A stretch of DNA of 54,689 nucleotides from a virus: positions 1 through 54,689 of the IMG/VR virus record IMGVR_UViG_3300005753_000041. The stretch is one strand, 5' to 3'. Positions 2,609 through 52,291 of this stretch are shown in pieces. A program made the translations under genes and the position numbers. The notes beneath the pieces were generated by a model. The model saw nothing but the letters and a program-made list of their open reading frames with translations, was not told the DNA's origin and did no database searches. Within the stretch, counting starts at the first letter, position 1. Every line of letters begins with the position of its first letter.

Positions 2609-2636
2609 ATGATGGAGGTAAGCAATCTTACATCAT
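2609..2636 (+). other. Imperfect stem-loop upstream of late promoter
   Basis: GTAAG (2618-2622) pairs with CTTAC (2627-2631) around a CAAT loop, and ATGAT (2609-2613) pairs with ATCAT (2632-2636), leaving a 4-nt bulge on the 5' side. No T-run follows, so it is not a standard intrinsic terminator. It sits between the small-gene cluster and the promoter at 2636 and may act in transcript processing or partial termination. Confidence 0.35.
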
Positions 2637-2663
2637 TGACATCAACATAGTTCAAGGTACAAT
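2636..2663 (+). promoter_or_regulatory. Sigma70-like promoter for the structural genes
   Basis: TTGACA at 2636-2641, a perfect -35 consensus, is followed after 16 bp by TACAAT at 2658-2663, a five-of-six match to the -10 consensus. Initiation near 2670 would give a short leader before the ribosome binding site GAGGAA at 2681-2686 and the ATG at 2692. N4 late genes are known to be read by host sigma70 RNA polymerase, so a promoter of this type at the head of the virion genes fits. It is predicted only from sequence. Confidence 0.6.
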
Positions 2664-2691
2664 TGATCAATAAACTTATAGAGGAATTAAA

Positions 2692-3102
2692 ATGAAAACA
2701 TCAAACGCAGGCGTTATTGCCGGACTTAACGCAATTACAGCATTATTAGATGCGGGTGCAGGCGCTGCAGTCATTAAGATATATAACGGAACGCAACCAG
2801 CAGATCCTTCTGTAGCAGTTGGTGTTCAAACATTACTAGGGACAGTTGTTTGTACTGACCCTGCATTTCCGTCAGCAATTGATGCTACAGGCTCTGCTAC
2901 TGCTACAGCTTCTGCAATTACTGCTGGGTTAGCAGTAGCGGTTGGTACTGCTTCATGGTTCAGGGCTTCAGATAGTAACGGTGTTGCTGTTTTTGATGGC
3001 GATGCTGGACAAGGTTCTGGTGAGCTAAACCTTGATGATAATACATTTGAAATCAATGATAATATCAGCGTCAACTCTTGGGTCATCACTATGGCAGAGT
3101 AA
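2692..3102 (+). CDS. Phage virion-associated protein, 136 aa (tail/decoration type)
   Basis: The protein is Ala/Thr/Gly-rich with no signal peptide. The layout matches a small structural family seen in many tailed phages: an N-terminal helix with DAG near residues 20-22, a strand with IYNGTQPADPS, a QTLLGTVVCTDPAF segment, then TASWFRASDSNGVAVFDGDAG and a C-terminal VNSWVITM strand. Members are annotated as structural or head/tail-associated proteins and the exact place in the virion is unknown. A good ribosome binding site (GAGGAATTAAA) precedes the ATG. It is the first gene after the sigma70-like promoter. Confidence 0.6.
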   Translation: MKTSNAGVIAGLNAITALLDAGAGAAVIKIYNGTQPADPSVAVGVQTLLGTVVCTDPAFPSAIDATGSATATASAITAGLAVAVGTASWFRASDSNGVAVFDGDAGQGSGELNLDDNTFEINDNISVNSWVITMAE

Positions 3103-3128
3103 TGCCTATCTCCTAAAGGATATGCATT

Positions 3129-4043
3129 ATGACCCTAGTTCTCGCAAGTACAGCGCACTCTGCTGTATCTAACACTGTAGATAAGACTTATAGTTGCTTT
3201 GATACGGCAGAATCAGCTACGTTCTTAGTAGAAAATTTAGTTGCGGGTACTTTAGTTAATATGAGTACCGGCAATAATCTAAGTGATGTTGGCTATAATC
3301 CCTATAGTAACCGTTTTATGTTCACGCGTAATAACTTTGCTTCCTTCCATGAGTTCTCTGAATCAGATATTGTTAATGGTGTGGCAAGCCCTACACAAAT
3401 AAGAGTAGTTACTGTAACTGCCCTCTTCGGTGATGATACTGAAGGACTTACTGATGTAGTTCCTAATTTAACAGAAGGGGGCTATGAATTTTGGATTTCC
3501 ATAGAGAATGGGGGAGTTAATCAGACATACAACGTACCCTATTCTAAAACTAATATGTTAGGGACAAGTAACATTTCCATTGGGGCAAGACAGCAATTAA
3601 TTATGGCTACGGTTGGTTCATCTAATGATGGTCAAGAAGGGGTAGGATTCCATCTTAAGAATCAAGAACTAATTGGATGTTCTGAAGGTGCTGTAGGTGT
3701 AAGAAGAATCTACGTAGCTAATAGACCTACAGATAGAGATACGAATTACGATCAAGCCTCAGATGCAGAACTTACGGTAACCGCTCCGTTTGATGCAAAT
3801 GTAGTTGTGCCTTCTGGGTCTGATTTATCCTCTATTTGCTTCCATGAAGCTACCGGGCATATTCTAGTATTATCTGAGACGGGTAATGCTTTATATCAAT
3901 ATAAAAGAGATGGGACTTTAGTATCTACTCTATCTGGATTAAATACCCCACTATTTCAACCAGAAGGTATATGTATGCATGGAGACAACATGGTAATTAT
4001 GGGAGAAACAGATGAATGCTGTTATTACACCTATACACCATGA
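3129..4043 (+). CDS. Beta-propeller-like protein (SdiA-regulated/esterase-like propeller), 304 aa
   Basis: The C-terminal 75 residues contain the pattern DLSSICFHEATGHILVLS, then YQYKRDGTLVSTL and FQPEGICMHGDNMVI. This resembles the blade signature of SdiA-regulated-type beta-propellers (DLS...TGhllvLS, FQPEGIa). Earlier parts show other strand-turn elements (NPYSNRFMFTRN). The N-terminal 15 residues are mildly hydrophobic with AHSA, and a weak signal peptide cannot be excluded. AAAGGA precedes the ATG. Lying between structural genes, it is probably a virion surface or tail-associated protein. Propeller folds in phage tails often mediate host binding, but no ligand can be inferred. Confidence 0.55.
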   Translation: MTLVLASTAHSAVSNTVDKTYSCFDTAESATFLVENLVAGTLVNMSTGNNLSDVGYNPYSNRFMFTRNNFASFHEFSESDIVNGVASPTQIRVVTVTALFGDDTEGLTDVVPNLTEGGYEFWISIENGGVNQTYNVPYSKTNMLGTSNISIGARQQLIMATVGSSNDGQEGVGFHLKNQELIGCSEGAVGVRRIYVANRPTDRDTNYDQASDAELTVTAPFDANVVVPSGSDLSSICFHEATGHILVLSETGNALYQYKRDGTLVSTLSGLNTPLFQPEGICMHGDNMVIMGETDECCYYTYTP

Positions 4044-26130: not shown

Positions 26131-29100
26131 ATGAGATTTGATGATAGTTTTATAGACTTCGATTTATCCAAACAATCGTCTATTAACATGTTTGGACAAA
26201 AAGAAGATGCGGTAGCTAATGCAAGCCAAGCCAAGCAGAATTCAATAAATGATAAAGTTAATCAAGATACTTTGGATAGGTTCAATGAAACCGTAATACG
26301 TAATAACCGTAGAGATTTTGGGGAACATGCCCAAGATGCTGCTTCTCTAGCCTTAAGAGCTTCACTAGGTTTAGGGCAAATTGCGTATGGCGCAACAGAT
26401 TTAGCATTATACGGGATCTCTCTCGGCAATATTGATTTAGATAAAGCAACCGAAGATCAGTATGGGGAAAGTCTAAGCCAAAAATTCCAACGAAGTAGGC
26501 GTATAGCCAACTCATTCGAATCAGAGCAACTAACTGCGCGTAGAGCAGAAATAGCTCGTAGGTCACATGAGAGAGGCTTAACCAATCAACAATTTGATGC
26601 AACTAATCCCACCGGCTTAGATAACTTTTTTCAAGGAGTTAAAAACTTTGGTAGTGCAGTAGCCGACCAAATTGAATTTGCAACTGTTGGTTTAGATTCT
26701 GCATTAGAGTCAATTCCCCAAGCGCTTGTGCCCGGAGGAATAACCAACATATTCAGAGCCAAGTTAGCCGGTGCTGCAGGAAAACTAGCAGCTAAGAATG
26801 TTACTAGAACTAAGCAAGGTAAAGCCTTATTTAATGCAAATGTACCCGAAGGTAAAGTAGCTAAAAACTTCAGACGTACTAAAGCAGGTAAGGCAATAAC
26901 TAAAGAAATAAAAGAAATAGCTTCTAGAAAAGGAGCTAAAGATTATTTAGAATCTAAAGCTGGGGTTAAAGCAGTAAATAGTATTGCATCTAAAACTGGA
27001 TTAACTTATGTAGCTGTATCGGAAGGAATAAGTAATGCAGGCGAGGTTCAATCTACAATATTGAACTCTACTGAGAAAGACTTAAATGCAAGCTCTAAAG
27101 AATATCGAGAGTTACGTAAACAAGGTCAGACACATAAACAAGCTAAACGGGCATTAGCTAATACAGGACGTTTAATTACTGCTTTAATAGCAGGGGCTAC
27201 AGGAGCCGTAGCAGGTAAATTAACCGGTTCAGCTAAGTTAGAAGGTCTTGGATTTAAAGTCGATTCCCCAGTAGGTAAAAAAATAGCCTCTAAAATATTG
27301 GTTAACCCAGTAACCAGTTCTGCAGCAAGAGAAGGCGTAGAAGAGACCCTCCAAGGAGCGTCAGGAACCTTTGCAGGAAACGTAGCTCAACGATTGACCT
27401 CAAACGATGATCAGAAGCTGTCAGAAGGCGTTATAGAAGGTGCTGCTCAAGGATTAGTTGCAGGTGTTATCTCAGGTGGTGGCTTAGCTGCTGTTTTGAA
27501 TATACCTAATGTAGGCTCAACAGTTTCTACTGGAATTAAAACAGGCGTTCAAGCAGTCTCTAAAAAGATTGAAGAGAAGACTTTAAGTAATGTAGATCCT
27601 ATTGCTAAAAAAGCGATCAAGTCAGGAGACTTAAGTAATATAGATAAGGAAGCTAACCCATTAGCTTATTTACAAGCAATTACTAATGAAAAATTCATAC
27701 CTAAAGACGAGAAAGAACTGGCTAAGCATAATGAAGAACTAGTTAGGGCAGCCACTGTTATATTTAATGATTTAGGTACTAGAGGTAAGGCACTTGCAGA
27801 TATTGGGGATACTGTACAAGAATTTCAAAAACAGTTAATTAGTCATGAAGAGACTCCCAACTTAACTGATGAACAAGTTACTGAGTACACACAAGCTATT
27901 GAACAGTATATAACAGACTTGGGTGAATTTCGTACTTTAAAGGACGCTTACGTAATACAAAACGACAAAATAACTACAATTAAAGAGGGTATTAAAGCTA
28001 CAGCACAAGCACCTATACAGGCTATAAAAGAAAAGTTAGATGCGGATAACTCCACAGTTATTGGGGAGAATACTAATGTAGATGCCCCGAAGGACAATTC
28101 TACTAAAATCACAGTAGATGAAGCCAACACTTTGTTAGGTAGTGGTACTAGGGTCACTGAATCTCAAGTAAATCAACTAGCAGAAATAGATGGTTTATCT
28201 GAGGAATCTAAAGCAGCGATTGATTATTACAAAGCAGTTAACTCAATAAGTGCTGTATCTCAAAATATAGCAGATAATGCCCCATTGCTTACGGATAAAC
28301 CAAATGCAAAAAAAGGCGTAGTACAGCACATAGAGGCAATACTTACTGCAACTAGTAAAGCAGATAAGGTTGGTGCCTATAACGAGTATGTTCAATTCAG
28401 GGATGGTTTAATTAATAAAAGTAAGGAAATTCTTGACTTAAATAAACCGAAGACTAGTCCTGAGTATAAGAAAGCATTTGCTAAATATATACCTCAAAAA
28501 CTAAAAGATAAAAATCCAGCTGACTTAGATGCACAAGTTACTAAGATTATGCACAGTGTATCTAAGGCTCTCAGACAGCAGGATTTACCGCTACTGAAGG
28601 TTACAGATATACATCTTAGTAACTTTGCCGGGATAACTACAAACAGTCCCTTAGAAGGCTCTACAGAGGTTGGGAGTACTCCAGAACAAAGTGTCGATAA
28701 TGTTACTACTCCAGAAACTACATCTGTACAGAATACGGATACGGGCACCGCAGACGTGCCTACTAAAGGTAAAATTCAACGGATTAAGCGGGTAAGTGTA
28801 AATACCCCTAGCAAACATAAAGATTCTTTATTTGTGTTTGGAGATAACCTAATAGGCAAGGGTAAAGCGGGACAAGCAGTAATCCGTGATGCAGAAAACT
28901 CAATAGGTATTCCTACTAAAAATCTACCCAGTAATAAGGATGGGGCCTTTGCAACTGATGCAGACTTTGATACATACAAGACTGCTATAGATACAGCTAT
29001 TACTAGTATCAAGGAAGCTCAAGATTCAGGAAAGAATATAGTGTTTCCGGTAGATGGTTTAGGTACGGGCTTAGCTAATTTAGCTGAAAGTAGCCCTAAA

Positions 29101-32100
29101 ATAGATAACTATTTACGCGCCCAATTAAAAAGTAATTTTGGGTATACTTATCCAACTCCTCAGACCAGTAAAGGTACAGTAGCGAAGGCTGATAAGCCGA
29201 AAGCGAATGTACCTGATACAGTACAAAATACCCAACAACAACAACAAACAACTACTACTACTCCAGAAGAATCCGGTACAGATACTGATATACGTGTAGG
29301 GTATCAATCAAGCATAGATGAATTAAATGGGAATGAGATCCACCCTGATGCTCCAAGTACAGTTAATGCAACCATAGTTAGAGAGCGTTTTGAGGAATTA
29401 TACAATAGTAAGATTCCCTTAAGTGATAAACAATTAAGTAAAATAATGCAGATAGCGCTGAATGGCGAAAAGTTTATTAGCAACAAAACTCACAAGCAAA
29501 ACATAATGAGAGCAGTTAACTCTTTATTAGTTGAGTTTAATCCAACCTTTGTTAACCCAAATCAGCAAAGTGATGCCCCTACTAAACAGGTAAATACCAA
29601 AGTTAAAGAAGGTACCCCATACACTAAAGCTAAACTTAAATTACTGGATAAATTAACAAAAGATTCTAACTTAGATGCAACACAGAAAGCAGCGGTTATT
29701 AAACAACTAGAATCCGGTATTGATAAACTAAACCCTAAAAGTAAAACATACTTAACGGATGCCGTGGCTTTATTAGAGACTAACGCTACACGTCTTGCTG
29801 AGTCTCAGGCACAACAAGGTAAGTTGGCGATACAGTTAGGACTGAAAGCTAAAACAGAATCGTATGCAGAAAATACAAACAAGGCTACGGATTTCATAGA
29901 TGCCCCAGAGCGTAAAACTAAGACGCAGGGAACAATTGAAGCCATCACTAACGTATTTACTAAATGGTTTACTTTACGTCCTTCAGGTAATATTTTTGGA
30001 TCTAGCTTTGACTTAACTAATAGGCTTGATTTTGATAAAGCAATTCTTGCATCATTACCTCCGAATACTGACTTAAATGATGTACAGCAACAGAGTATAG
30101 ATAACGTCTTTGACTATATTGGAAAGTATATAAAAGAGTATCGAAAACGGCAGGTAACTTCATCGACTATAAACTCAAAAGGTAATCCATTAATTAACGG
30201 ATCATTCCTTGCGACTGCCCCTATATACAGTATGTTACGCGGAGAAGGTGTAAAAGTTTTTGATGATAACGTAGTAGCAGCATTTGCTATGGCTTCACTA
30301 GATTACATTACAGGCTCTATGCTAGAAGATATTAACCCAGCAGAAGCTCGTACTCGAACAGCATCCATCTTGGGTATTAAAGATAAGAGACAGCCAATTA
30401 ATAATTTCCATGTCAAGGTACTAGGTAATATAGGTAAGTTAAGATCAGACTTAGAAAAAGATATAGGTAGAAGTTTTAAATCTATAATAGGTGTTCAGGC
30501 AAACGATGAAACATTAGAGTCAGTATCTGATTTAATGGATTCAACTGCAGGTGCGATAATCACTCAGTCTATGCTAAACACTGGAACTCTAGTAGAAACA
30601 GTTATGCCTACAGCATTATATCAAGCGATAACTGATCCTACTGCATTAAATTTAGAAACATTTACTAAGTATTTTGACAATGTAACCGGGCAGTATATCA
30701 AAGGAAGTTACGAGAAAGATTTTGCAGACGCGCTACAAACTATATCCTTCTTGAGTGCGAATCATAGAGTTGATATTAAGACAACTAAAGCAGGTAATAG
30801 GTATTCCACCAAACAGGTACATCCTAGATTAGACACTATGGCTAATATGTTTACTAATACAGCATCATTAGGGCATAAATTATTTGGGGTAACTTCTGTA
30901 GATAAATTACCTTCATTAAATGAACCAACAGAATTGCAAGAAACTGCAGGAGGGAAAAAACAAAATAAGGTGAATCCTAAAGTAGCTAAAATACGTTTAG
31001 AACACTCTAAGAAGCCCGTTAAGCTAAATAAATCAATAACCCAAGTGTTACTCTCATTAGGTAGAGAACAGGTTATAGACATGATTGTTACCCCTCTAGA
31101 TGAACAAGTCATACACTCAGATGATTTTATGTCTGAGAAAGCAAAATATGATACTACAGTACGGTCTATAAATGACTTCTTTGATTTTGTAGAGGGATTA
31201 CCTACCCAAGATGCTGAGTTCTATTTAACCCAAGTTGGTTGGACAAATACACGTACAGGTCTAGAAAATAATAAACTTAATCCTCAAGGAGATAAGTTTG
31301 CTAGGTTTATTATGCAGTACTCTGCCAATAAAATAAGTATAACTAAAGGCGACTCAGATAGTTTATTGGGGTTCAAACTAGCTGTCACACAGGCGTTAGG
31401 ACATAGTATTGATAATATGAATATAAATCAGATAAACACTGTGTTTAATGGCTTAGTAGACGAGGCGAATACCCCAGATAGTTTCTTACAACAGCAAATA
31501 GAAGTTGCAAATGGGCTAAGTGAAACAAACACTCCTGAAGATTTTGGATCAGGCATTGTAGAGTCGTTGATTATAAAAGACCATAAAGGGAACGAAGGGC
31601 TACACCATTTAACTGGTTTACTTGCATTAGGGGATTATATTTCCACAGAAGAGGGTGATTCGTTTGATACTTCAATTTTCTATGAAGTAGATGGTAAGAC
31701 AAATGGTTTTGCTATTACCTTACTTCAATTAGTCACTCAAAGTGGGGGAGTTACTTCCAGCAATATTGGTATATTAGAAGCAAAGGTAATAGAGAACTCA
31801 GACCCCGAAGCTATAGCTACCTTTTACGATTCTAGGGGAAAGCGTACATCTATTTTACAAAAACTTATTCGTAACCTCTCAGTAGATGAAAGACTTGCTA
31901 AGACAGGTGTGATGCAGGACTCTAGTACATTCAAAACTTATGTAGAGTATAAACAGAAAACGGGAAGTCAGGACTCATACCAAGAATTGATGGCAGATAT
32001 ATTAACTAGAGAAGTTAATGTCAACAAAGTATTAGGGGACCAAACAAAAGCAGAACTCTTAGACACTATGATTAGTGCAGGGATCACCAAAGCAATTAAT

Positions 32101-35100
32101 AGTACTATTTTTAGAGTGAATAAGGCAATAAAAGAGGGCAACTTACTTAGCCCAGAAACTGTACATTATATGTACACGAATGCATTACAAAATAATATAG
32201 ACTCTTTAGTTAATCTTATAAATAAAGACCTTGATGGGGAGTCACAACCACAGTTAGGGATTTCGGAGGAACAGCTTAATTCAATCAAAGACATTAACAA
32301 CTTAAGAACTGCAGCCAATATATTATATTCAGCTAGAGCTGACGATAGTAAACGTACTGCAGCAATGATTCTTAACAATGCTACACCAGGGAAACCAAAG
32401 TATGTTGTTATTAAAGCTGAAATGGCGCGTAGAGGGCGCAATACAGCCAAACATATTCGTACAGCTAATGATCGTTTGGACGCTGCACAAAGCCTTGTAG
32501 GTGCCTTACAGAAAGGGGAATCTATAGATGAACAAGGTCTGCCACAATTCATAATAAGTTCATTAGGTAGAGAATTAGCTAAACCTGCATTATTAATCTC
32601 TAACTATGGGGCAGCCATTACCAGCATTATAAATAAATACTCCGACTTTGTTATAGCAGAGCTAAAGAAGGATTTAGTTAACTTACATAAAACACGGGAA
32701 GATATAGATAGCCAAGGGAGGATTGATGCATTAAATAAAGCATATAATCAACTAACAGGCAAAACAGGGGTTATATTATTTACTAAGCAAAATCTCTTAA
32801 GTCGATTACCTGCAGATATAAGTACTGTAGTAAGAGCAAACCTAAACAAGTCTTATGGTCAGCTTATTAAAGATACTCTACAAGAAAAGTATGGGGATGT
32901 ATTTGAGGCTAGGAGACAGTTGACTAATATGACAAGCTTAACCTACCACCTGTACAAGGCATATGAGCAAGCAACTATAGAAGAGTATAAGAAAGAGCAT
33001 GATATAACAGCACTAACTGTAGGTGACAGGAAAACTATCAATGAACAGTTAATCGCTGTAACACCTTACTATGAAACTTATTTTTCAGAGTCTATAGATG
33101 AGGGCATCTTAGGCCCAGTACTTTCAGAGAAACAAGTAATTAATGATCCTAGTTATACGTCAAATGTCCCTATTATTACAAAAGAAGGAGCAGTAGGGCG
33201 TAGAAAAGTTACCGGGTATAGGAAAGAAGTAGATCACCCGGGAGTGCGAGTTCCTGTAATGTTGACGCACTCCTTAGATGCTACAGTACAATTATTATTC
33301 ATTGAAAAGTTACATGAGCAAACAGGGATTACTGCACTAAATCTCCATGATGCATATGGCATGTCTACTTTAAATCCTGAACTTACTACTAAAATTTATA
33401 ATGAATCGTACAAAGAAGCTGTAATTAAGTTTTCCATTACAGAGTCAGTAAATAATCCCCTACAGAGAATCCATGAAGCATTTGAGCTTATGGGGGATAC
33501 TGGTACTTACCAAGATAATTACAAAAAACTGGAGAAAGATATAAAGGATAGAGTAGTTACCGATGGGGGTTTAGGCTTACTTGGCATGAGAGGTTTCTTA
33601 GAGCTTGGCATCCCAGGATTAGTTGCTAGTGCTGGTAATATTTCAAGAGAGACTAACCAAGCTCGTAATGAATATTTTAGTAGGGGAGACATTCACTTCA
33701 ATCAATACATTGCTACGGATCTTGAAGGTAGTACTTCTACAGTAAAAGAGGCTAATGCTAACTTGGATTCTAACCATACTCCTTCCCCTAAAACAGAGAC
33801 CAGTAATACGGAAACTGAGTTAGGTAGTAGTAATGAAGACCTAGATATAAGCAATTTCAAAGCAGATACAGAAGTGGATCTTACGCCCTCTTCAGTAGTA
33901 GCGGAATTTGATAATCTAGTTGGTGCCGGCAACAAACAAGATACTCCTTCACATACAGCCCAACTCAAAGATGTAATAGAGTCTATTATTCAAAAGGTAC
34001 TCAAGCCAGTTACGCTCAAGATACGTACTGCAGGTAACTCCACAATAGGTGCCTACAAGCCTAGTGAAGGAATATTTTTGAATATATCTAGCCCAACAGC
34101 AGGTAAACCCAATTTATTCACAGATATGAGTCCTCAAGAGGTATATACGCATGAATTAACCCATCGGGTAATACTAGAAGCCTTGAACACTATTCCTGCT
34201 CTATACACAAGAGCAGACAGGTTTAGGACCGAAGTTATGCAGGCAAAGGATGCTAATGGCAATCTTATAATGACTTCAGATATATTCTTAGACCCTGCGT
34301 TAGCTAATAATCCTGATGCAGTTAAGCTCGCAGAGGATACTTTTAATTATATATTTCATAACACAGGGACAAGTAGAGTAAATATACTTGACCCACGGAC
34401 AGGTAAAAAGGTATCTAAGAAAGTAGAGAATGGTATACACGAATTTATGACATTTTCTGTCACAAACGAACCCTTTATACGCGCACTAAAACAAATACAG
34501 ATTGCTAACAAAGTGAAAGTTAATACTAATGCAACTTTATTTGAAAAAGCTGTAGAGTTGTTTAATACCATACTAAATATATTCAGAAGGTATACTGGTA
34601 AATCTAATACATCAGCAGATATAGCGGCTATGAACATAGTTAATGCTTTAGCAGATGTGCAGGTTAAACAACGTAGCCAAGTCGCCAAAGTGTATAACCA
34701 AGTTACAGATACCGTAAGTACTATCTACTCTAAGAGTATTGATAAAACAATAGGTAAACTACTAAAAGACGGCATAACAATTAAGGGAGTTAACCATAAT
34801 TTAAATCTCCCTGATGTGGATACTTATGATGCCTTCTTTACTGGAGCCAAAGCTGTGTTAGGTAAAACCTCTGCACCATTAGACGGGTTTGCACACGGTA
34901 TATTAAATGAGTTACATCCTAATTCTAAGACCAATGATTTTATTCATAATGCGTTTAGGTATAAGCGAGTTAAAATTGATCAAGCAACCCAGAGAATAAG
35001 TCACGGCTTTGTTACCTATGTTAATAATCTATTTGATAATGAATTAAACAAGCAAGACAAAATACATATAACTAAAGTTATGTTGCGTACTGATTCTCAA

Positions 35101-37314
35101 TCCTTAGTTGGTAGCTATGATGCAAATCAACTAGGAGACTTTATGCTTAAGCCTAGTTCATTACAGACTGAAATTAATTCATTAGAGAAACAACTGAAGA
35201 AAGACTTCGGTGCAAACGCACATTATTATTCTGTTATGTCTAAGAATTTAGCATGGTTTATGGCCACTCAAAAATCTAGAGGGAAAGCCTTATTATTAAA
35301 TGCATATGATATAGCTAACCTTAAACAATCTGGATTAAAGAGTATAGGTAATTTAAAAGCAGCAGAGAAAGCAATAGATACTTTAACTTCTTTAAGAGCA
35401 TTAGCTTTTACAGAATCTGGAGTCTTACGTAAAGCAGGAGTGTTATATAAAAAATACCCTAAGCAAATGGATGAACTATTAGAATCTAATCGTATAAACT
35501 ATTTATCACGTATGAAAAGTATGTTTAATAATAATCCTAGTCAAGTTACAAAAGGATGGGTTAGAGAAAAATACTCCAATAACATTCAAATACGAGTAGG
35601 GGAAAGAGCAGATTTAGATCAGATGGCAAGTGAAGGTTTCTATCCAGATGAAAATGCAAAAAGTATGTTGAATGATCCAAGTGATAAGAGTCCAGAAAAG
35701 CTACTTTACGTTAATAAATACGCTGACCTCTCCGCTAGAGTATCTGGTGCATTTAGCTTAAGCGATATACACGCTAAAGGAACTAAAGTAGAAAATAAAT
35801 ACTTATCAGACGTTATTCTAGATAAAGATAGAGTGTTTAAAAAGATTGCCAATGGAGGTGATGTACTTACTACTTCAGATGAAGGAAACGTAATACCATT
35901 AATGAACTCTAGTGGGGATATTGTTGGGTACCGATATGTCATATCTAACTTCCATAAAGAATCTATGTTAGATGCTGACTTAACTATAGATAATGTTATG
36001 GCTCGAATGGAGACGCATAATATAACTAGAACTCGTACTAAAATTGTAAACAAAGCTTTAGTAGATAATGCTTTTAAGTCTTTTTCAACAGCAACTCCTC
36101 AGTCACAACGATTACAGTATGTGGCTATAGGTGCAAAGGAAAAAGGTAAATTTAAAGAGTATTGGGATTTATTGCCAGAAGAGACAAAACAAGATGTGAT
36201 TAATACGTGGGGTACGGCAAGAATGTACTTACCTAAGGATGCTGTCATCATGGCTATGGGACAGGCTAAATGGTCTACGCAAAGTATACGTAAGAAAGAT
36301 TTAACTAATCTTAAAGGAAAAAAACACGTATACGGGGCTATCAATAACGTAGTGGCTACCTTGTTAAATAACCCTAAGATTAACTTTGGAGAGACTTTAT
36401 TAAGGGAAGCTATACTATTTGCTAAAGACACCATTGTGAATAGAACAGGGACTGTTCTAGTAGGGAATCAGTTAAGTAATATGATTACTTTAAAAATTAA
36501 AGGTATTCCTTTTGCTGATATATTGCAGGGACAAACAGAAGCAGTTAAGCATATTAAATTATATGCGATTACAACTGACAAAATAATGCAGAACATTATT
36601 AAGTTACGTAACAATCCTACTTTATCTAAACAGGAACGTAAGGTTATAAAAGCCGAGCTTACGAGATTAAACCATCAACTTACTCAGAATCCTGTTGGGC
36701 CTTTAATTGATGCAGGAATGCATCAAACTATTGTAGAGGATGTGGATATTACAGATGACCCATCTAAAATGGGACGCATTGAAAAAGCTATAAAAGGTAA
36801 TAAATTAATTCAAAGCTTAAGTAATACAAGTGGTAATGCTTATTCAAACGCTATACGTAAAGTTGGGTCAGAATTACTAATGACGCATAATAGTGCACTG
36901 TATTCTTTCTTGCATGACGCTACTAGAATTTCGGATTTTGCTGCAAGGTATGTACTACATAAACACAATCTAGCAAAAGGAATAGATGCAAATAAATCTA
37001 TTTCAGAAATAGATAGAACATTTATCAATTACGATTTGCCTTCACATCCTTTCTTACAGTTAGGTAATGATCTAGGCTTCATGATCTTTACTAAATTCCT
37101 GTTCAGGATTCAACCAATAATAGCTGAGCTTCTTGTGAATAATCCTAAAAATGTTACAGCTTTTCTACTGTATCAACTTACGTTAGGGATAGATCCTGAA
37201 GATATAATGGAGGCGTTTATGAGTCCAACTAAATTAATCAATAAGTTCAATAATCCTTTTGAACTTATGTTGGATGTAATGGATGAAGGGTTAGTAGCAA
37301 GTACGCTTACTTAG
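26131..37314 (+). CDS. Giant virion RNA polymerase (N4 gp50-like vRNAP), 3727 aa
   Basis: This is a T7-like single-subunit RNA polymerase packaged in the virion and injected with the DNA to read early genes. The visible motifs are a TxxGxR-like TKAGNRY at residues 1552-1558; motif A with D1854 (EVDGKTNG); motif B with R2147, K2151, Y2159 and G2160, exactly the RxxxKx7YG spacing; and motif C with H2406-D2407 (LHDAYG). N4 vRNAP has 3,500 residues with its polymerase in the middle third, as here. N-terminal regions hold Ala/Gly-rich amphipathic segments (about 60-90, 345-370 and 430-460). Unusual are a FGDN...GIPTK phage domain at about 891-1010 and a zincin-like H2674-E-L-T-H2678 with E2771 as candidate third ligand. 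The ribosome binding site is poor. The stop overlaps a convergent minus-strand gene. Confidence 0.9.
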   Translation: MRFDDSFIDFDLSKQSSINMFGQKEDAVANASQAKQNSINDKVNQDTLDRFNETVIRNNRRDFGEHAQDAASLALRASLGLGQIAYGATDLALYGISLGNIDLDKATEDQYGESLSQKFQRSRRIANSFESEQLTARRAEIARRSHERGLTNQQFDATNPTGLDNFFQGVKNFGSAVADQIEFATVGLDSALESIPQALVPGGITNIFRAKLAGAAGKLAAKNVTRTKQGKALFNANVPEGKVAKNFRRTKAGKAITKEIKEIASRKGAKDYLESKAGVKAVNSIASKTGLTYVAVSEGISNAGEVQSTILNSTEKDLNASSKEYRELRKQGQTHKQAKRALANTGRLITALIAGATGAVAGKLTGSAKLEGLGFKVDSPVGKKIASKILVNPVTSSAAREGVEETLQGASGTFAGNVAQRLTSNDDQKLSEGVIEGAAQGLVAGVISGGGLAAVLNIPNVGSTVSTGIKTGVQAVSKKIEEKTLSNVDPIAKKAIKSGDLSNIDKEANPLAYLQAITNEKFIPKDEKELAKHNEELVRAATVIFNDLGTRGKALADIGDTVQEFQKQLISHEETPNLTDEQVTEYTQAIEQYITDLGEFRTLKDAYVIQNDKITTIKEGIKATAQAPIQAIKEKLDADNSTVIGENTNVDAPKDNSTKITVDEANTLLGSGTRVTESQVNQLAEIDGLSEESKAAIDYYKAVNSISAVSQNIADNAPLLTDKPNAKKGVVQHIEAILTATSKADKVGAYNEYVQFRDGLINKSKEILDLNKPKTSPEYKKAFAKYIPQKLKDKNPADLDAQVTKIMHSVSKALRQQDLPLLKVTDIHLSNFAGITTNSPLEGSTEVGSTPEQSVDNVTTPETTSVQNTDTGTADVPTKGKIQRIKRVSVNTPSKHKDSLFVFGDNLIGKGKAGQAVIRDAENSIGIPTKNLPSNKDGAFATDADFDTYKTAIDTAITSIKEAQDSGKNIVFPVDGLGTGLANLAESSPKIDNYLRAQLKSNFGYTYPTPQTSKGTVAKADKPKANVPDTVQNTQQQQQTTTTTPEESGTDTDIRVGYQSSIDELNGNEIHPDAPSTVNATIVRERFEELYNSKIPLSDKQLSKIMQIALNGEKFISNKTHKQNIMRAVNSLLVEFNPTFVNPNQQSDAPTKQVNTKVKEGTPYTKAKLKLLDKLTKDSNLDATQKAAVIKQLESGIDKLNPKSKTYLTDAVALLETNATRLAESQAQQGKLAIQLGLKAKTESYAENTNKATDFIDAPERKTKTQGTIEAITNVFTKWFTLRPSGNIFGSSFDLTNRLDFDKAILASLPPNTDLNDVQQQSIDNVFDYIGKYIKEYRKRQVTSSTINSKGNPLINGSFLATAPIYSMLRGEGVKVFDDNVVAAFAMASLDYITGSMLEDINPAEARTRTASILGIKDKRQPINNFHVKVLGNIGKLRSDLEKDIGRSFKSIIGVQANDETLESVSDLMDSTAGAIITQSMLNTGTLVETVMPTALYQAITDPTALNLETFTKYFDNVTGQYIKGSYEKDFADALQTISFLSANHRVDIKTTKAGNRYSTKQVHPRLDTMANMFTNTASLGHKLFGVTSVDKLPSLNEPTELQETAGGKKQNKVNPKVAKIRLEHSKKPVKLNKSITQVLLSLGREQVIDMIVTPLDEQVIHSDDFMSEKAKYDTTVRSINDFFDFVEGLPTQDAEFYLTQVGWTNTRTGLENNKLNPQGDKFARFIMQYSANKISITKGDSDSLLGFKLAVTQALGHSIDNMNINQINTVFNGLVDEANTPDSFLQQQIEVANGLSETNTPEDFGSGIVESLIIKDHKGNEGLHHLTGLLALGDYISTEEGDSFDTSIFYEVDGKTNGFAITLLQLVTQSGGVTSSNIGILEAKVIENSDPEAIATFYDSRGKRTSILQKLIRNLSVDERLAKTGVMQDSSTFKTYVEYKQKTGSQDSYQELMADILTREVNVNKVLGDQTKAELLDTMISAGITKAINSTIFRVNKAIKEGNLLSPETVHYMYTNALQNNIDSLVNLINKDLDGESQPQLGISEEQLNSIKDINNLRTAANILYSARADDSKRTAAMILNNATPGKPKYVVIKAEMARRGRNTAKHIRTANDRLDAAQSLVGALQKGESIDEQGLPQFIISSLGRELAKPALLISNYGAAITSIINKYSDFVIAELKKDLVNLHKTREDIDSQGRIDALNKAYNQLTGKTGVILFTKQNLLSRLPADISTVVRANLNKSYGQLIKDTLQEKYGDVFEARRQLTNMTSLTYHLYKAYEQATIEEYKKEHDITALTVGDRKTINEQLIAVTPYYETYFSESIDEGILGPVLSEKQVINDPSYTSNVPIITKEGAVGRRKVTGYRKEVDHPGVRVPVMLTHSLDATVQLLFIEKLHEQTGITALNLHDAYGMSTLNPELTTKIYNESYKEAVIKFSITESVNNPLQRIHEAFELMGDTGTYQDNYKKLEKDIKDRVVTDGGLGLLGMRGFLELGIPGLVASAGNISRETNQARNEYFSRGDIHFNQYIATDLEGSTSTVKEANANLDSNHTPSPKTETSNTETELGSSNEDLDISNFKADTEVDLTPSSVVAEFDNLVGAGNKQDTPSHTAQLKDVIESIIQKVLKPVTLKIRTAGNSTIGAYKPSEGIFLNISSPTAGKPNLFTDMSPQEVYTHELTHRVILEALNTIPALYTRADRFRTEVMQAKDANGNLIMTSDIFLDPALANNPDAVKLAEDTFNYIFHNTGTSRVNILDPRTGKKVSKKVENGIHEFMTFSVTNEPFIRALKQIQIANKVKVNTNATLFEKAVELFNTILNIFRRYTGKSNTSADIAAMNIVNALADVQVKQRSQVAKVYNQVTDTVSTIYSKSIDKTIGKLLKDGITIKGVNHNLNLPDVDTYDAFFTGAKAVLGKTSAPLDGFAHGILNELHPNSKTNDFIHNAFRYKRVKIDQATQRISHGFVTYVNNLFDNELNKQDKIHITKVMLRTDSQSLVGSYDANQLGDFMLKPSSLQTEINSLEKQLKKDFGANAHYYSVMSKNLAWFMATQKSRGKALLLNAYDIANLKQSGLKSIGNLKAAEKAIDTLTSLRALAFTESGVLRKAGVLYKKYPKQMDELLESNRINYLSRMKSMFNNNPSQVTKGWVREKYSNNIQIRVGERADLDQMASEGFYPDENAKSMLNDPSDKSPEKLLYVNKYADLSARVSGAFSLSDIHAKGTKVENKYLSDVILDKDRVFKKIANGGDVLTTSDEGNVIPLMNSSGDIVGYRYVISNFHKESMLDADLTIDNVMARMETHNITRTRTKIVNKALVDNAFKSFSTATPQSQRLQYVAIGAKEKGKFKEYWDLLPEETKQDVINTWGTARMYLPKDAVIMAMGQAKWSTQSIRKKDLTNLKGKKHVYGAINNVVATLLNNPKINFGETLLREAILFAKDTIVNRTGTVLVGNQLSNMITLKIKGIPFADILQGQTEAVKHIKLYAITTDKIMQNIIKLRNNPTLSKQERKVIKAELTRLNHQLTQNPVGPLIDAGMHQTIVEDVDITDDPSKMGRIEKAIKGNKLIQSLSNTSGNAYSNAIRKVGSELLMTHNSALYSFLHDATRISDFAARYVLHKHNLAKGIDANKSISEIDRTFINYDLPSHPFLQLGNDLGFMIFTKFLFRIQPIIAELLVNNPKNVTAFLLYQLTLGIDPEDIMEAFMSPTKLINKFNNPFELMLDVMDEGLVASTLT

Positions 37315-48446: not shown

Positions 48447-49577
48447 TTATTTTGAATCTTCCATATGAATTAATGTGCCAAAATTTACCTCAACATTTGG
48501 ATTATCAAAGCAAATCCATATTACAGGATACCCCGGATCTTTTTGTACTTTTTGACAGTATAAATCACTAAATATAATTAATACTTCAGGAGGTGCTTGG
48601 TTATAATATTCAAATACTGGGGTTAAATCTGTGCCCCCTCTACCAGTAAAAGGTAAACCAGTTACGTCTTCATCTGCTTGAAGTTTATGTATATTTTTAA
48701 TCGAAGTATCGAAATCAATAATTGTAGTAAGGGACGGCTTTAATCGTTGTTTAATTTCATTTATTTCTGTTAGAAACTCCGTAAACATATCATCACTCAC
48801 AGAACCGCTTGTATCCACTGCTACAGCCACTTCTCCTGTGGATTCGCTGTACAAGGTAGGTATATACATATCAGGCATGTAGCGCTTGTTTGGACGCTTA
48901 TACGAGTAGTCATCTTTAGAAAACGAAGTCATATAATTAGCCAATATGGTCTTCCAATCTAATTTAGGATTTAATAATTCATCAATCATTAATTTAATAT
49001 CCCCAGGAATATTACTGTACTGCTTTGCGCTTTCCATCTTGGTAGCGGTTGCAGCCTTCACAAGAATATCTTGTACTTTCCTTTGTACTAATGCTTTCTT
49101 TTCTGCAGTTAACTTCTCAGTTGAAATTATATCACAATCATATCCAGCACCAATGTTACTACTAGGGTCGTCTTTTAATAATGCGTACACTTGAGCTGTA
49201 CTCATACCAATGTACTTGTTGTCTAATAAACCCTTAGGGGGTAAAGTGTACCCTGCTTTAGTTACTACCAAATTAATCACGTAATCCGCTGCGCGGTTAT
49301 ATTTTTCCTTCTTAAATTGTTCACTCCTAAGGATGTGTTCAAAAGCAACATGCCAAGCTTCGTGAGCTAGTAGCCCAATACGTGCTGGTTCAGTTAATGT
49401 TAGCCACCATGTTGGATTAATAAATAAATTAATCCCATCTACACCTGCTGTGGGAATTTGCTCTTCCCATTTAGTTTTTAATGAGAAGAGGATAGTAGAT
49501 AAAAAGGTAGAGTTGCCTTTACTAATTAAACCAATCTTAGCTTTACTTAGTGTTTTCTTTAATACTTGTTGATCCAT
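48447..49577 (-). CDS. VWA-domain protein with HExxH metallopeptidase-like N-terminus (N4 gp25-like, DUF2201), 376 aa
   Basis: Residues 71-81 (AHEAWHVAFEH) carry HExxH with a further His at the +9 position, as in the DUF2201 N-terminal putative metallopeptidase. The C-terminal VWA domain has the MIDAS sequence DTSGS at 255-259 and a later GRGGTDLTPVF threonine. In N4 this pairs with a MoxR ATPase, and MoxR-VWA systems are chaperones that remodel or metallate protein complexes. The phage target is unknown. I place the start at ATG 49577, after GAAGAAGAAATTT. A TTG five codons upstream is possible but less likely. It overlaps the 79-aa gene by 35 nt. Confidence 0.8.
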   Translation of the reverse strand: MDQQVLKKTLSKAKIGLISKGNSTFLSTILFSLKTKWEEQIPTAGVDGINLFINPTWWLTLTEPARIGLLAHEAWHVAFEHILRSEQFKKEKYNRAADYVINLVVTKAGYTLPPKGLLDNKYIGMSTAQVYALLKDDPSSNIGAGYDCDIISTEKLTAEKKALVQRKVQDILVKAATATKMESAKQYSNIPGDIKLMIDELLNPKLDWKTILANYMTSFSKDDYSYKRPNKRYMPDMYIPTLYSESTGEVAVAVDTSGSVSDDMFTEFLTEINEIKQRLKPSLTTIIDFDTSIKNIHKLQADEDVTGLPFTGRGGTDLTPVFEYYNQAPPEVLIIFSDLYCQKVQKDPGYPVIWICFDNPNVEVNFGTLIHMEDSK

Positions 49578-49782
49578 AAATTTCTTCTTCAATGAAAGGT
49601 AAGATTGACCCTAGTTTAGCAAACCAATGTATAATTTTATCTGGCTTACCTGCGTAATACCCAATATCGTTAAGGGTTATTAGATACCCTTCATAACTAT
49701 ACTTAACAAGATTATTTCTGATAGGAGTATGCGGAGATATTCCACGTAAAAGCATCTCTGCCTTGAACTCAGTCATAGTCAT
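49543..49782 (-). CDS. Small protein between MoxR and VWA genes, 79 aa
   Basis: The start shares a base with the MoxR stop (TAATG), giving MTMTEFKAEMLLRGI. A longer frame from 49824 would lie inside MoxR. The product is a soluble mixed helix/strand protein with EGYLITLNDIGYYAG and IIHWFAKLG. Its first residues resemble the amber-interrupted gene at 50872-51102 (EFKADMLLMGW). Being translated between the two partners of a MoxR-VWA pair, it may be part of the same complex, though that is inference. Confidence 0.55.
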   Translation of the reverse strand: MTMTEFKAEMLLRGISPHTPIRNNLVKYSYEGYLITLNDIGYYAGKPDKIIHWFAKLGSILPFIEEEIYGSTSIKENTK

Positions 49783-50804
49783 TACATGTACTCTTTCGCG
49801 TACTTCAGGGTAGCTTTTTTCCATGAACTACTCTGAGTAATCTGAGGGCAACGTCTACAACAACCACGCATAGTTACTGCTTCAAACTCTGCATCCATAC
49901 GCTCAATATATTTATATAAAGTTTCGAAGTTTTTAACTGTAGTGTTCGAACCAATCATCCCCATAATTGCATACAGTGTCGCTGGCTCATCTGGAACCTT
50001 ACACCCAGTTGGATCAGCTAAGATGTCATCTATAGTAATCAAGTCACCATATATTTCACAGAATGTTGTAAACTCCCTTCCTGCTCCTTCTCCAATAGTA
50101 CCTTCTATAATTGGAATCATTATTTCAGGTAAAGCATCTGGATAAGGGGTGATAAGTCTAGAAACAAAGTCATGGGTACGAGCACAAGGAAATGTTAAAT
50201 CATTATGGTTTGGATCGAATTTATGTAGCAGTTCAGGCCTAAAGTTAATGAAGGCAATAACCCGATGATCAATATTATTATTTTCTGCCCATTCTACCCA
50301 AGCTTTATGCTCCATTTGTATTTGTAGATGGATCATTCTTGATTGCATTGCAGTAGACGATTTATTAACTATTGCTTTATCTGACATCAAATTACCTGCA
50401 GCCATAATAGCTACACTTTTATGTAAGTTAAGTTGCCCTACTTTTTTATCTAAAATAAGTTTATAGGCGGCTGCTTGAATAGCCTGTGGTGCTGAATTAA
50501 TTTCATCTAAAAATAGTAACCAGCCTTTCTTCCCTTTAGGGAGAGGATCTCTCTCAACTGGAAATGTAGCTACGGGCATATAGTCAGCCTTCATTGTTTC
50601 TTTGTTAGGAAAGATAAATCCATTTAAGTCAGTAGGGTCCACTGTACTTAATCTAATATCAACCAACTCCAAACTAGCTTCATCTGCTATTTGGCGTGCT
50701 AATGCACTCTTGGCAGTTCCAGGGCTTCCATGTAACATAGGAACTAAACCTACTTTTAATACAGCTAGTACTGCTTCTTTTGCTTTTCCAATTGATATAA
50801 ACAT
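49782..50804 (-). CDS. MoxR-family AAA+ ATPase (N4 gp24-like), 340 aa
   Basis: Walker A is GSPGTAKS at 26-33 and Walker B LLFLDE at 96-101. The sequence NSAPQAIQAAAYKLILDKKVG follows, then a sensor-like AIMAAGN. This layout belongs to the MoxR branch of helix-2-insert AAA+ proteins. MoxR ATPases work with VWA proteins, encoded here in the same operon, to remodel client proteins. The leader TTATTTATAAGGAACACTA precedes the ATG, and the gene begins just after the tandem terminators, so it heads the long replication operon. Confidence 0.85.
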   Translation of the reverse strand: MFISIGKAKEAVLAVLKVGLVPMLHGSPGTAKSALARQIADEASLELVDIRLSTVDPTDLNGFIFPNKETMKADYMPVATFPVERDPLPKGKKGWLLFLDEINSAPQAIQAAAYKLILDKKVGQLNLHKSVAIMAAGNLMSDKAIVNKSSTAMQSRMIHLQIQMEHKAWVEWAENNNIDHRVIAFINFRPELLHKFDPNHNDLTFPCARTHDFVSRLITPYPDALPEIMIPIIEGTIGEGAGREFTTFCEIYGDLITIDDILADPTGCKVPDEPATLYAIMGMIGSNTTVKNFETLYKYIERMDAEFEAVTMRGCCRRCPQITQSSSWKKATLKYAKEYM

Positions 50805-51901: not shown

Positions 51902-52291
51902 CTACTTATTTTTAATCTTGAACCATTTATCGCCAGAGTTGTATCCTGAAATAGCGATCCATTTATAGCCTTTTATTGACATATCCTCTCTAGTTCTTAC
52001 TTTAGATTCGTTGTTGTCTAATATGTATCCATCTACCTCTAATACGCAATGTCCCGAACCATTCGCAACAGTACAGTAAATTAGTCTAGAACGTAAGTCT
52101 GCTTCTCTGGCTAATTTACGACAGGCTAAAGCAAAGTCTTCGCAGTCTCCTACAATAGTTGAGAATCCTGAGAAATCTTCGGGAGGCATTACCCATTTTT
52201 CTGCCATACCATACTGGGCGGTATCTGTTTTATAGGTAAAGTTTTTAATTACTTTCCTATGAATAGCGCGTAATTTCATTAAAGTGCTCAT
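51902..52291 (-). CDS. Transglutaminase-like cysteine protease (BTLCP family), 129 aa
   Basis: The catalytic triad is visible: C50 in VGDCEDFALACRKLA, H81 in GSGHCVLEV and D92 in YILDNNES. This is the pattern of bacterial transglutaminase-like cysteine peptidases, which occur in phages and proteobacteria. It has no signal peptide, so it should act in the cytoplasm unless exported otherwise. The start shares a base with the lipoprotein stop (TAATG). An early-expressed protease could attack a host protein, but the substrate is unknown. Confidence 0.8.
   Translation of the reverse strand: MSTLMKLRAIHRKVIKNFTYKTDTAQYGMAEKWVMPPEDFSGFSTIVGDCEDFALACRKLAREADLRSRLIYCTVANGSGHCVLEVDGYILDNNESKVRTREDMSIKGYKWIAISGYNSGDKWFKIKNK

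Follow-up and report, generated by a model that had tools for sequence, protein, structure and literature searches.

The window, by which we mean the whole stretch of viral DNA analysed here (54,689 nucleotides, IMG/VR record IMGVR_UViG_3300005753_000041), has as its largest open reading frame the gene for a virion RNA polymerase (vRNAP) of the N4 gp50 type. The protein belongs with the N4-type (Schitoviridae) vRNAPs by its family match, by a C2 region and by a T7-like RNAP motif C, which we take HDAYG to be from knowledge of single-subunit RNAPs. A zincin-type domain of the class that we call Zw separates the polymerase from C2 (Table 1). On the other strand, the window also encodes a DUF2201 protein, a putative metallopeptidase that adjoins an AAA ATPase, and a small cysteine proteinase of the transglutaminase-like kind.

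Table 1. Features of the vRNAP gene and other peptidase-like genes in the window.
Feature	Window position	Strand	Residues	Basis or remark
Virion RNA polymerase (vRNAP, N4 gp50-type)	26131..37314	+	3727 aa	phrog_2206 'virion RNA polymerase', E 1.9e-276; N4 vRNAP PDB sequences matched
DUF7831 (PF25176), N-terminal part of vRNAP	28810..29121		894-997	E 1.3e-31
Presumed RNAP motif C (HDAYG)	33346..33360	+	2406-2410	268 residues upstream of HELTH
Zincin domain (Zw class)	33850..34578	+	2574-2816	between RNAP and C-terminal C2 domain; HMM Zw 202 bits, the window sequence itself being among those that built the profile; AlphaFold2 model
Zincin core	33946..34086	+	N-terminal helix 2606-2623; strands 2627-2633, 2639-2643, 2647-2652	DSSP of model
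HELTH: predicted zinc ligands H2674 and H2678, predicted general base E2675	34150..34164	+	2674-2678	76/76 invariant; model helix
IHEFMTFSVTN: E2771, predicted third zinc ligand	34435..34467	+	2769-2779	E2771 76/76, N2779 70/76; model helix
C-terminal C2 region	34699..37221	+	about 2857-3697	homologous to N4 2632-3444 (phmmer to N4 vRNAP, matched over 2857-3674; phrog_2206)
DUF2201 protein, putative metallopeptidase	48447..49592	-		HEAWH and VWA-like domain
AAA ATPase	49782..50804	-		adjoins DUF2201 protein
Small transglutaminase-like cysteine proteinase	51902..52291	-		Peptidase_C93, E 1.6e-14

Conservation of the HExxH motif and the downstream glutamate

HELTH is the sole HExxH in the vRNAP and lies exactly where a preliminary description of this DNA had placed it; IHEFMTFSVTNEPF, beginning at residue 2769, puts E2771 93 residues after H2678, again in agreement with the third ligand proposed there. 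From composition, 0.048 HExxH motifs are expected in the protein, and shuffling produces one in 4.3% of sequences, while an HExxH followed 50-110 residues on by E[FLY]-x6-N arises in 0.18% of shuffled vRNAPs. Conservation is far stronger evidence for the motif than these statistics. Among 27 isolates (26 vRNAPs of annotated phages across Schitoviridae plus the window), H2674, E2675, H2678 and E2771 occur in 27/27, and no other column of the region is fully invariant; E2670 and N2779 are each found in 26/27. The loss of the two histidines and the glutamate in homologues, which the preliminary description had named as evidence against its proposal, is thus not seen.

The same four columns are each retained in 76/76 sequences when 49 non-redundant IMG/VR loci are added, at identities to the window of about 10-31%, although the invariance of the third ligand is partly selected among the added loci, some of which were retrieved with a pattern including EF..TN; the 27 isolates are free of this bias. 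HExxH is kept in 63/63 IMG/VR loci spanning the zincin region, the ten others being fragments in which the matched stretch starts past that region or the contig starts there. The spacing between HExxH and the third ligand varies from 57 to 97 residues across homologues. The window sequence alone, used as a query for related loci, gave no matches, and an alignment was required as the query. Pfam and NCBIfam give the window domain no zincin name; Pfam zincin matches are weak for some family members (best E 0.005) and lacking for the window.

If the zinc served structure alone, no glutamate acting as general base would be required. That E2675 varies no more than the ligands do favours catalysis over a structural role for the metal.

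Predicted fold

An AlphaFold2 model of the window domain, built with 47 IMG/VR homologues, has a mean pLDDT of 87.2 and a pTM of 0.84. In model numbering, a helix (38-55) is followed by strands at 59-65, 71-75 and 79-84, HELTH lies in helix 100-119 and E2771 in helix 199-210. This is the arrangement given for the zincins of polyvalent proteins by Iyer et al. 2017: a three-stranded sheet after the N-terminal helix, HExxH on the first conserved helix, and the third-ligand glutamate on the second, after a variable insert. The helix pair for which the preliminary description had proposed to look is therefore present in the model, and its suggestion of a zinc-protease-like domain is borne out by this pair together with the invariant histidines and glutamate.

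A Foldseek search of the PDB with the model returned no match under E 0.001. In a second look at the structural matches (VIA), for which the candidates were confined to Foldseek's list, the top match was the N4 vRNAP at residues 2374-2593 (Z 11.4, rmsd 3.9, 179 aligned), and the rows after it were mostly zincins. Among these zincins are the catalytic part of lethal factor (584-776; Z 7.0, rmsd 4.1, 144 aligned) and, at Z 5.5 (rmsd 3.9, 130 aligned), PPEP-1. HExxH oxygenases come next, with the HExxH domain of ChlB (8s5f; Z 4.2, rmsd 4.4, 127 aligned) and SjiH-Ni (22ob; Z 3.4, rmsd 4.7, 129 aligned). Since a Z of about 7 is middling, we base the fold assignment chiefly on the topology, the motif and the profiles. 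PPEP-1 and the catalytic domain of anthrax lethal factor resemble the window's domain in zincin fold at these middling scores, but are secreted bacterial enzymes with no detectable sequence similarity to it beyond the motif.

Two zincin paralogues in N4-type polymerases

The N4 cryo-EM preprint (Bellis 2025) reports a conserved HExxH in the C1 domain (2124-2375) and describes C2 (2376-3500) as having no structural homologue (PMC12633501). Like the window zincin, C1 stands between the RNAP and the C-terminal domain and has an HExxH with a downstream glutamate. Because the window model fell on N4 2374-2593 and not on C1, and because the stretch from HExxH to C2 is about 220 residues longer in N4-type than in window-type vRNAPs, we built separate profiles for the active zincins of N4-type proteins (Z1), the segment that follows these (Z2) and the active zincins of window-type proteins (Zw).

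In hhalign comparisons, for which the Z1 and Z2 slices did not overlap, Zw aligned with Z2 at E 1e-31 over 217 columns (3e-30 with the catalytic columns masked), with Z1 at E 4e-16 (masked, 4e-11), and Z1 with Z2 at E 5e-7 (masked, 3e-6). Six other N4-type segments and a reversed Z2, serving as controls, scored at chance level. A tree with the catalytic columns masked splits Z1 and the Z1-like copies from Zw and Z2 (SH-aLRT 96) and places Z2 as a single group inside Zw (SH-aLRT 89), with long branches limiting finer conclusions. An N4-type Z2 was modelled with moderate confidence (pLDDT 73.7), and structural comparison placed it on N4 2357-2591 (Z 12.9, rmsd 7.6, 203 aligned). An offset in the N4 residue numbering of the PDB entry was considered and rejected, the Z2 model falling on the same N4 stretch as the window model.

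Orthology of the window zincin to the active N4 Z1 (C1) is contradicted by profile comparison, structural placement and tree alike. The window zincin is orthologous to N4 Z2 (about 2361-2592), in which the motif is lost, and paralogous to C1. At the catalytic positions, Z2 of 26 non-redundant N4-type proteins reads LEER, FKQN, FKYV and similar, the set HEHE being found in 0/26 as against 39/39 for Zw; the Z2 of one locus (L042) retains the first histidine only. The Z2 model has no strands, and its sole zincin match, PPEP-2, is weak (Z 2.6, rmsd 5.9, 125 aligned); judging by this model, the dead copy may have lost its sheet.

Domain architectures and the insertion in Vibrio phage phi 1

Among 90 vRNAPs or zincin-C2 proteins, a count that includes near-identical phages and uses profiles trained on the same proteins, 48 have the architecture Zw(active), 38 Z1(active)-Z2(dead), two Z1(active)-Zw(active) and two a pair of Z1-like copies with Zw, and a protein without an intact zincin was found in 0/90. 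Window-type vRNAPs, unlike that of N4, mostly lack a separate Z1. The Vibrio and Pseudoalteromonas schitoviruses phi50-12, pVco-5, JA-1 and pYD6-A have the RNAP, one active Zw and C2, as in the window, to which their zincin regions are 19-27% identical; the spacer from the first histidine to the glutamate is 70-87 residues in this group versus 97 in the window.

The vRNAP of Vibrio phage phi 1 (KP280062; L036 and L102) is about 96% identical to that of its relative L075 on both flanks of a precise insertion of 218 residues (L036 1416-1633; L036:4248-4901; KP280062 39739-40392) that is absent from L075. What is inserted, between the RNAP and Zw, is a complete Z1-like zincin, with HELIH and then AELVTYGLTN, and within the phage collection searched high-identity copies of its sequence are confined to phi 1. 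The comparison with L075 indicates that the zincin domain can be acquired or lost as a module.

Extra Z1-like HExxH zincins also occur a long way upstream of Zw, early in the available protein stretch: two in tandem in L080 and L081 (residues 67-257 and 302-474), and one each in L059 (about 389-493) and L037 (about 170-287, a weak match at E 0.0075). Two contigs of 83 and 123 kb encode zincin and C2 proteins of about 1,220-1,240 residues with no fused RNAP (L091:2670-6395 and L100:94-3744).

Large ejected proteins with an HExxH and a downstream glutamate but, unlike the window protein, no fused RNAP are the PhiM1 internal core protein (PDB 8vb2) and an internal virion protein (PDB 9sfn). The former has 1263 residues and the motif HEAAH (L101:4198-7989; JX290549 32197-35988) and, among the three profiles, matches that of Z1 alone; the latter carries HEAVH in chain G. 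The PhiM1 ejectosome paper makes no mention of a peptidase.

Discussion

The preliminary description had regarded a peptidase in an N4-type vRNAP as a novelty, which it is not: a zincin-like metallopeptidase domain was assigned to the N4 vRNAP by Iyer et al. 2017 (PMC5512222), a 2021 review repeats this (PMC8472413), and the N4 preprint notes the HExxH (PMC12633501). The domain class is already known from these proteins. The exchange of paralogues is the new part, and appears undescribed in the literature on these vRNAPs, as far as the papers examined show. Several observations count against the peptidase reading put forward next: the N4 vRNAP papers examined report neither such an activity nor a bound metal for that protein, the purified full-length protein is not degraded, Pfam has no zincin match to the window's domain, and the structural matches are of the modest strength given above.

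We propose that residues about 2574-2816 of the window protein, the orthologue of Z2, are a metallopeptidase domain of the zincin type whose active site is intact and would act in catalysis after ejection, a reading that we hold with good though not full confidence. Zn2+ would be coordinated by H2674, H2678 and E2771, with E2675 as the general base that would activate a water molecule. The vRNAP, with its zincin, is injected along with the DNA, and the peptidase would act during or after ejection, either on the injected protein or the ejection apparatus or on a protein of the host. The analysis establishes the motif, its conservation, the predicted fold, the assignment to a paralogue and the loss of the site in Z2; hydrolysis, the metal, the timing and the target are what we infer, and a zinc peptidase that is active once ejected is the most likely combination. 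The presence of Z1-type zincins in ejection proteins that lack an RNAP points to a role in delivery, the setting common to these proteins being ejection and not transcription.

What might the enzyme cleave? We give roughly equal weight to the vRNAP or ejection apparatus and to a host protein. A host target, be it an envelope, defence or regulatory protein cleaved inside the cell, is a possibility to be taken seriously even if it falls short of being probable: the vRNAP is delivered first, with the DNA, zincins are common to ejection proteins without an RNAP, and the fold resembles that of trans-acting peptidases such as PPEP-1, but conservation over hosts from Escherichia to Roseobacter would require a conserved target. 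The domain might instead cut its own polypeptide after ejection, near the hinge between RNAP and C2, and so free the polymerase from an inhibitory C-terminal domain. The position of the zincin at this junction fits such a cut, as does the inhibition of transcription by the CTD of the N4 vRNAP (PMC12633501), and autoprocessing, like an effector role, was proposed for polyvalent-protein zincins by Iyer et al. 2017, citing P1 DdrB (PMC5512222). The N4 vRNAP is, however, packaged unprocessed (PMC5512222), and the purified, recombinant full-length protein shows no degradation (PMC12633501); both facts make it less likely that the protein constitutively cleaves itself before infection. Related zincins, of one superfamily with this domain, moreover reside in ejection proteins that carry no RNAP. 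We regard self-cleavage as possible, though less likely than not.

Explanations without proteolysis fare less well. A non-catalytic domain stabilised by zinc would accord with the persistence of Z2 in N4-type proteins after the loss of its active site and with the location of the N4 zincin in the part of the vRNAP needed for encapsidation (PMC5512222), but the invariance of E2675 alongside the ligands (76/76), and the fact that a dead paralogue is always accompanied by an intact one, make this improbable. HExxH occurs in alpha-ketoglutarate-dependent oxygenases as well as in peptidases (PMC12633501), and 8s5f and 22ob are among the structural matches; lethal factor and PPEP-1 nevertheless outscore these oxygenases, and the profile-profile comparison of Iyer et al. 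2017 gave zincin peptidases (PMC5512222), so that we consider an oxygenase very improbable. A chance motif, for which one might point to the frequency of HExxH among shuffled sequences, is already refuted by conservation, the motif being invariant across 76 divergent homologues. The zincin core of the model speaks against it as well, and we give it practically no credence.

Returning to a peptidase acting upon ejection, we lean, with some reserve, towards a model in which one active zincin is obligatory in schitovirus vRNAPs for a proteolytic step at or just after ejection, the duty having switched between paralogues. The C2-proximal copy would perform it in window-type proteins and the upstream copy in N4-type proteins, whose own C2-proximal copy would have decayed to a pseudo-zincin within the 'new fold' part of the CTD. 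A part of the 2025 N4 structure that was described without a structural homologue can accordingly be re-read as a decayed zincin. This dead domain (N4 2361-2592) offers an internal control to the N4 active site at H2228, E2229 and H2232, and Vibrio phage phi 1 and its relatives form a natural gain/loss pair for the zincin.

The N4 literature leaves the role of the C-terminal region of the vRNAP open, and the zincin bears on it. Every vRNAP seen has a complete catalytic set while the paralogue that carries it varies, which is good evidence of selection on enzymatic activity and suggests that these phages preserve the activity itself.
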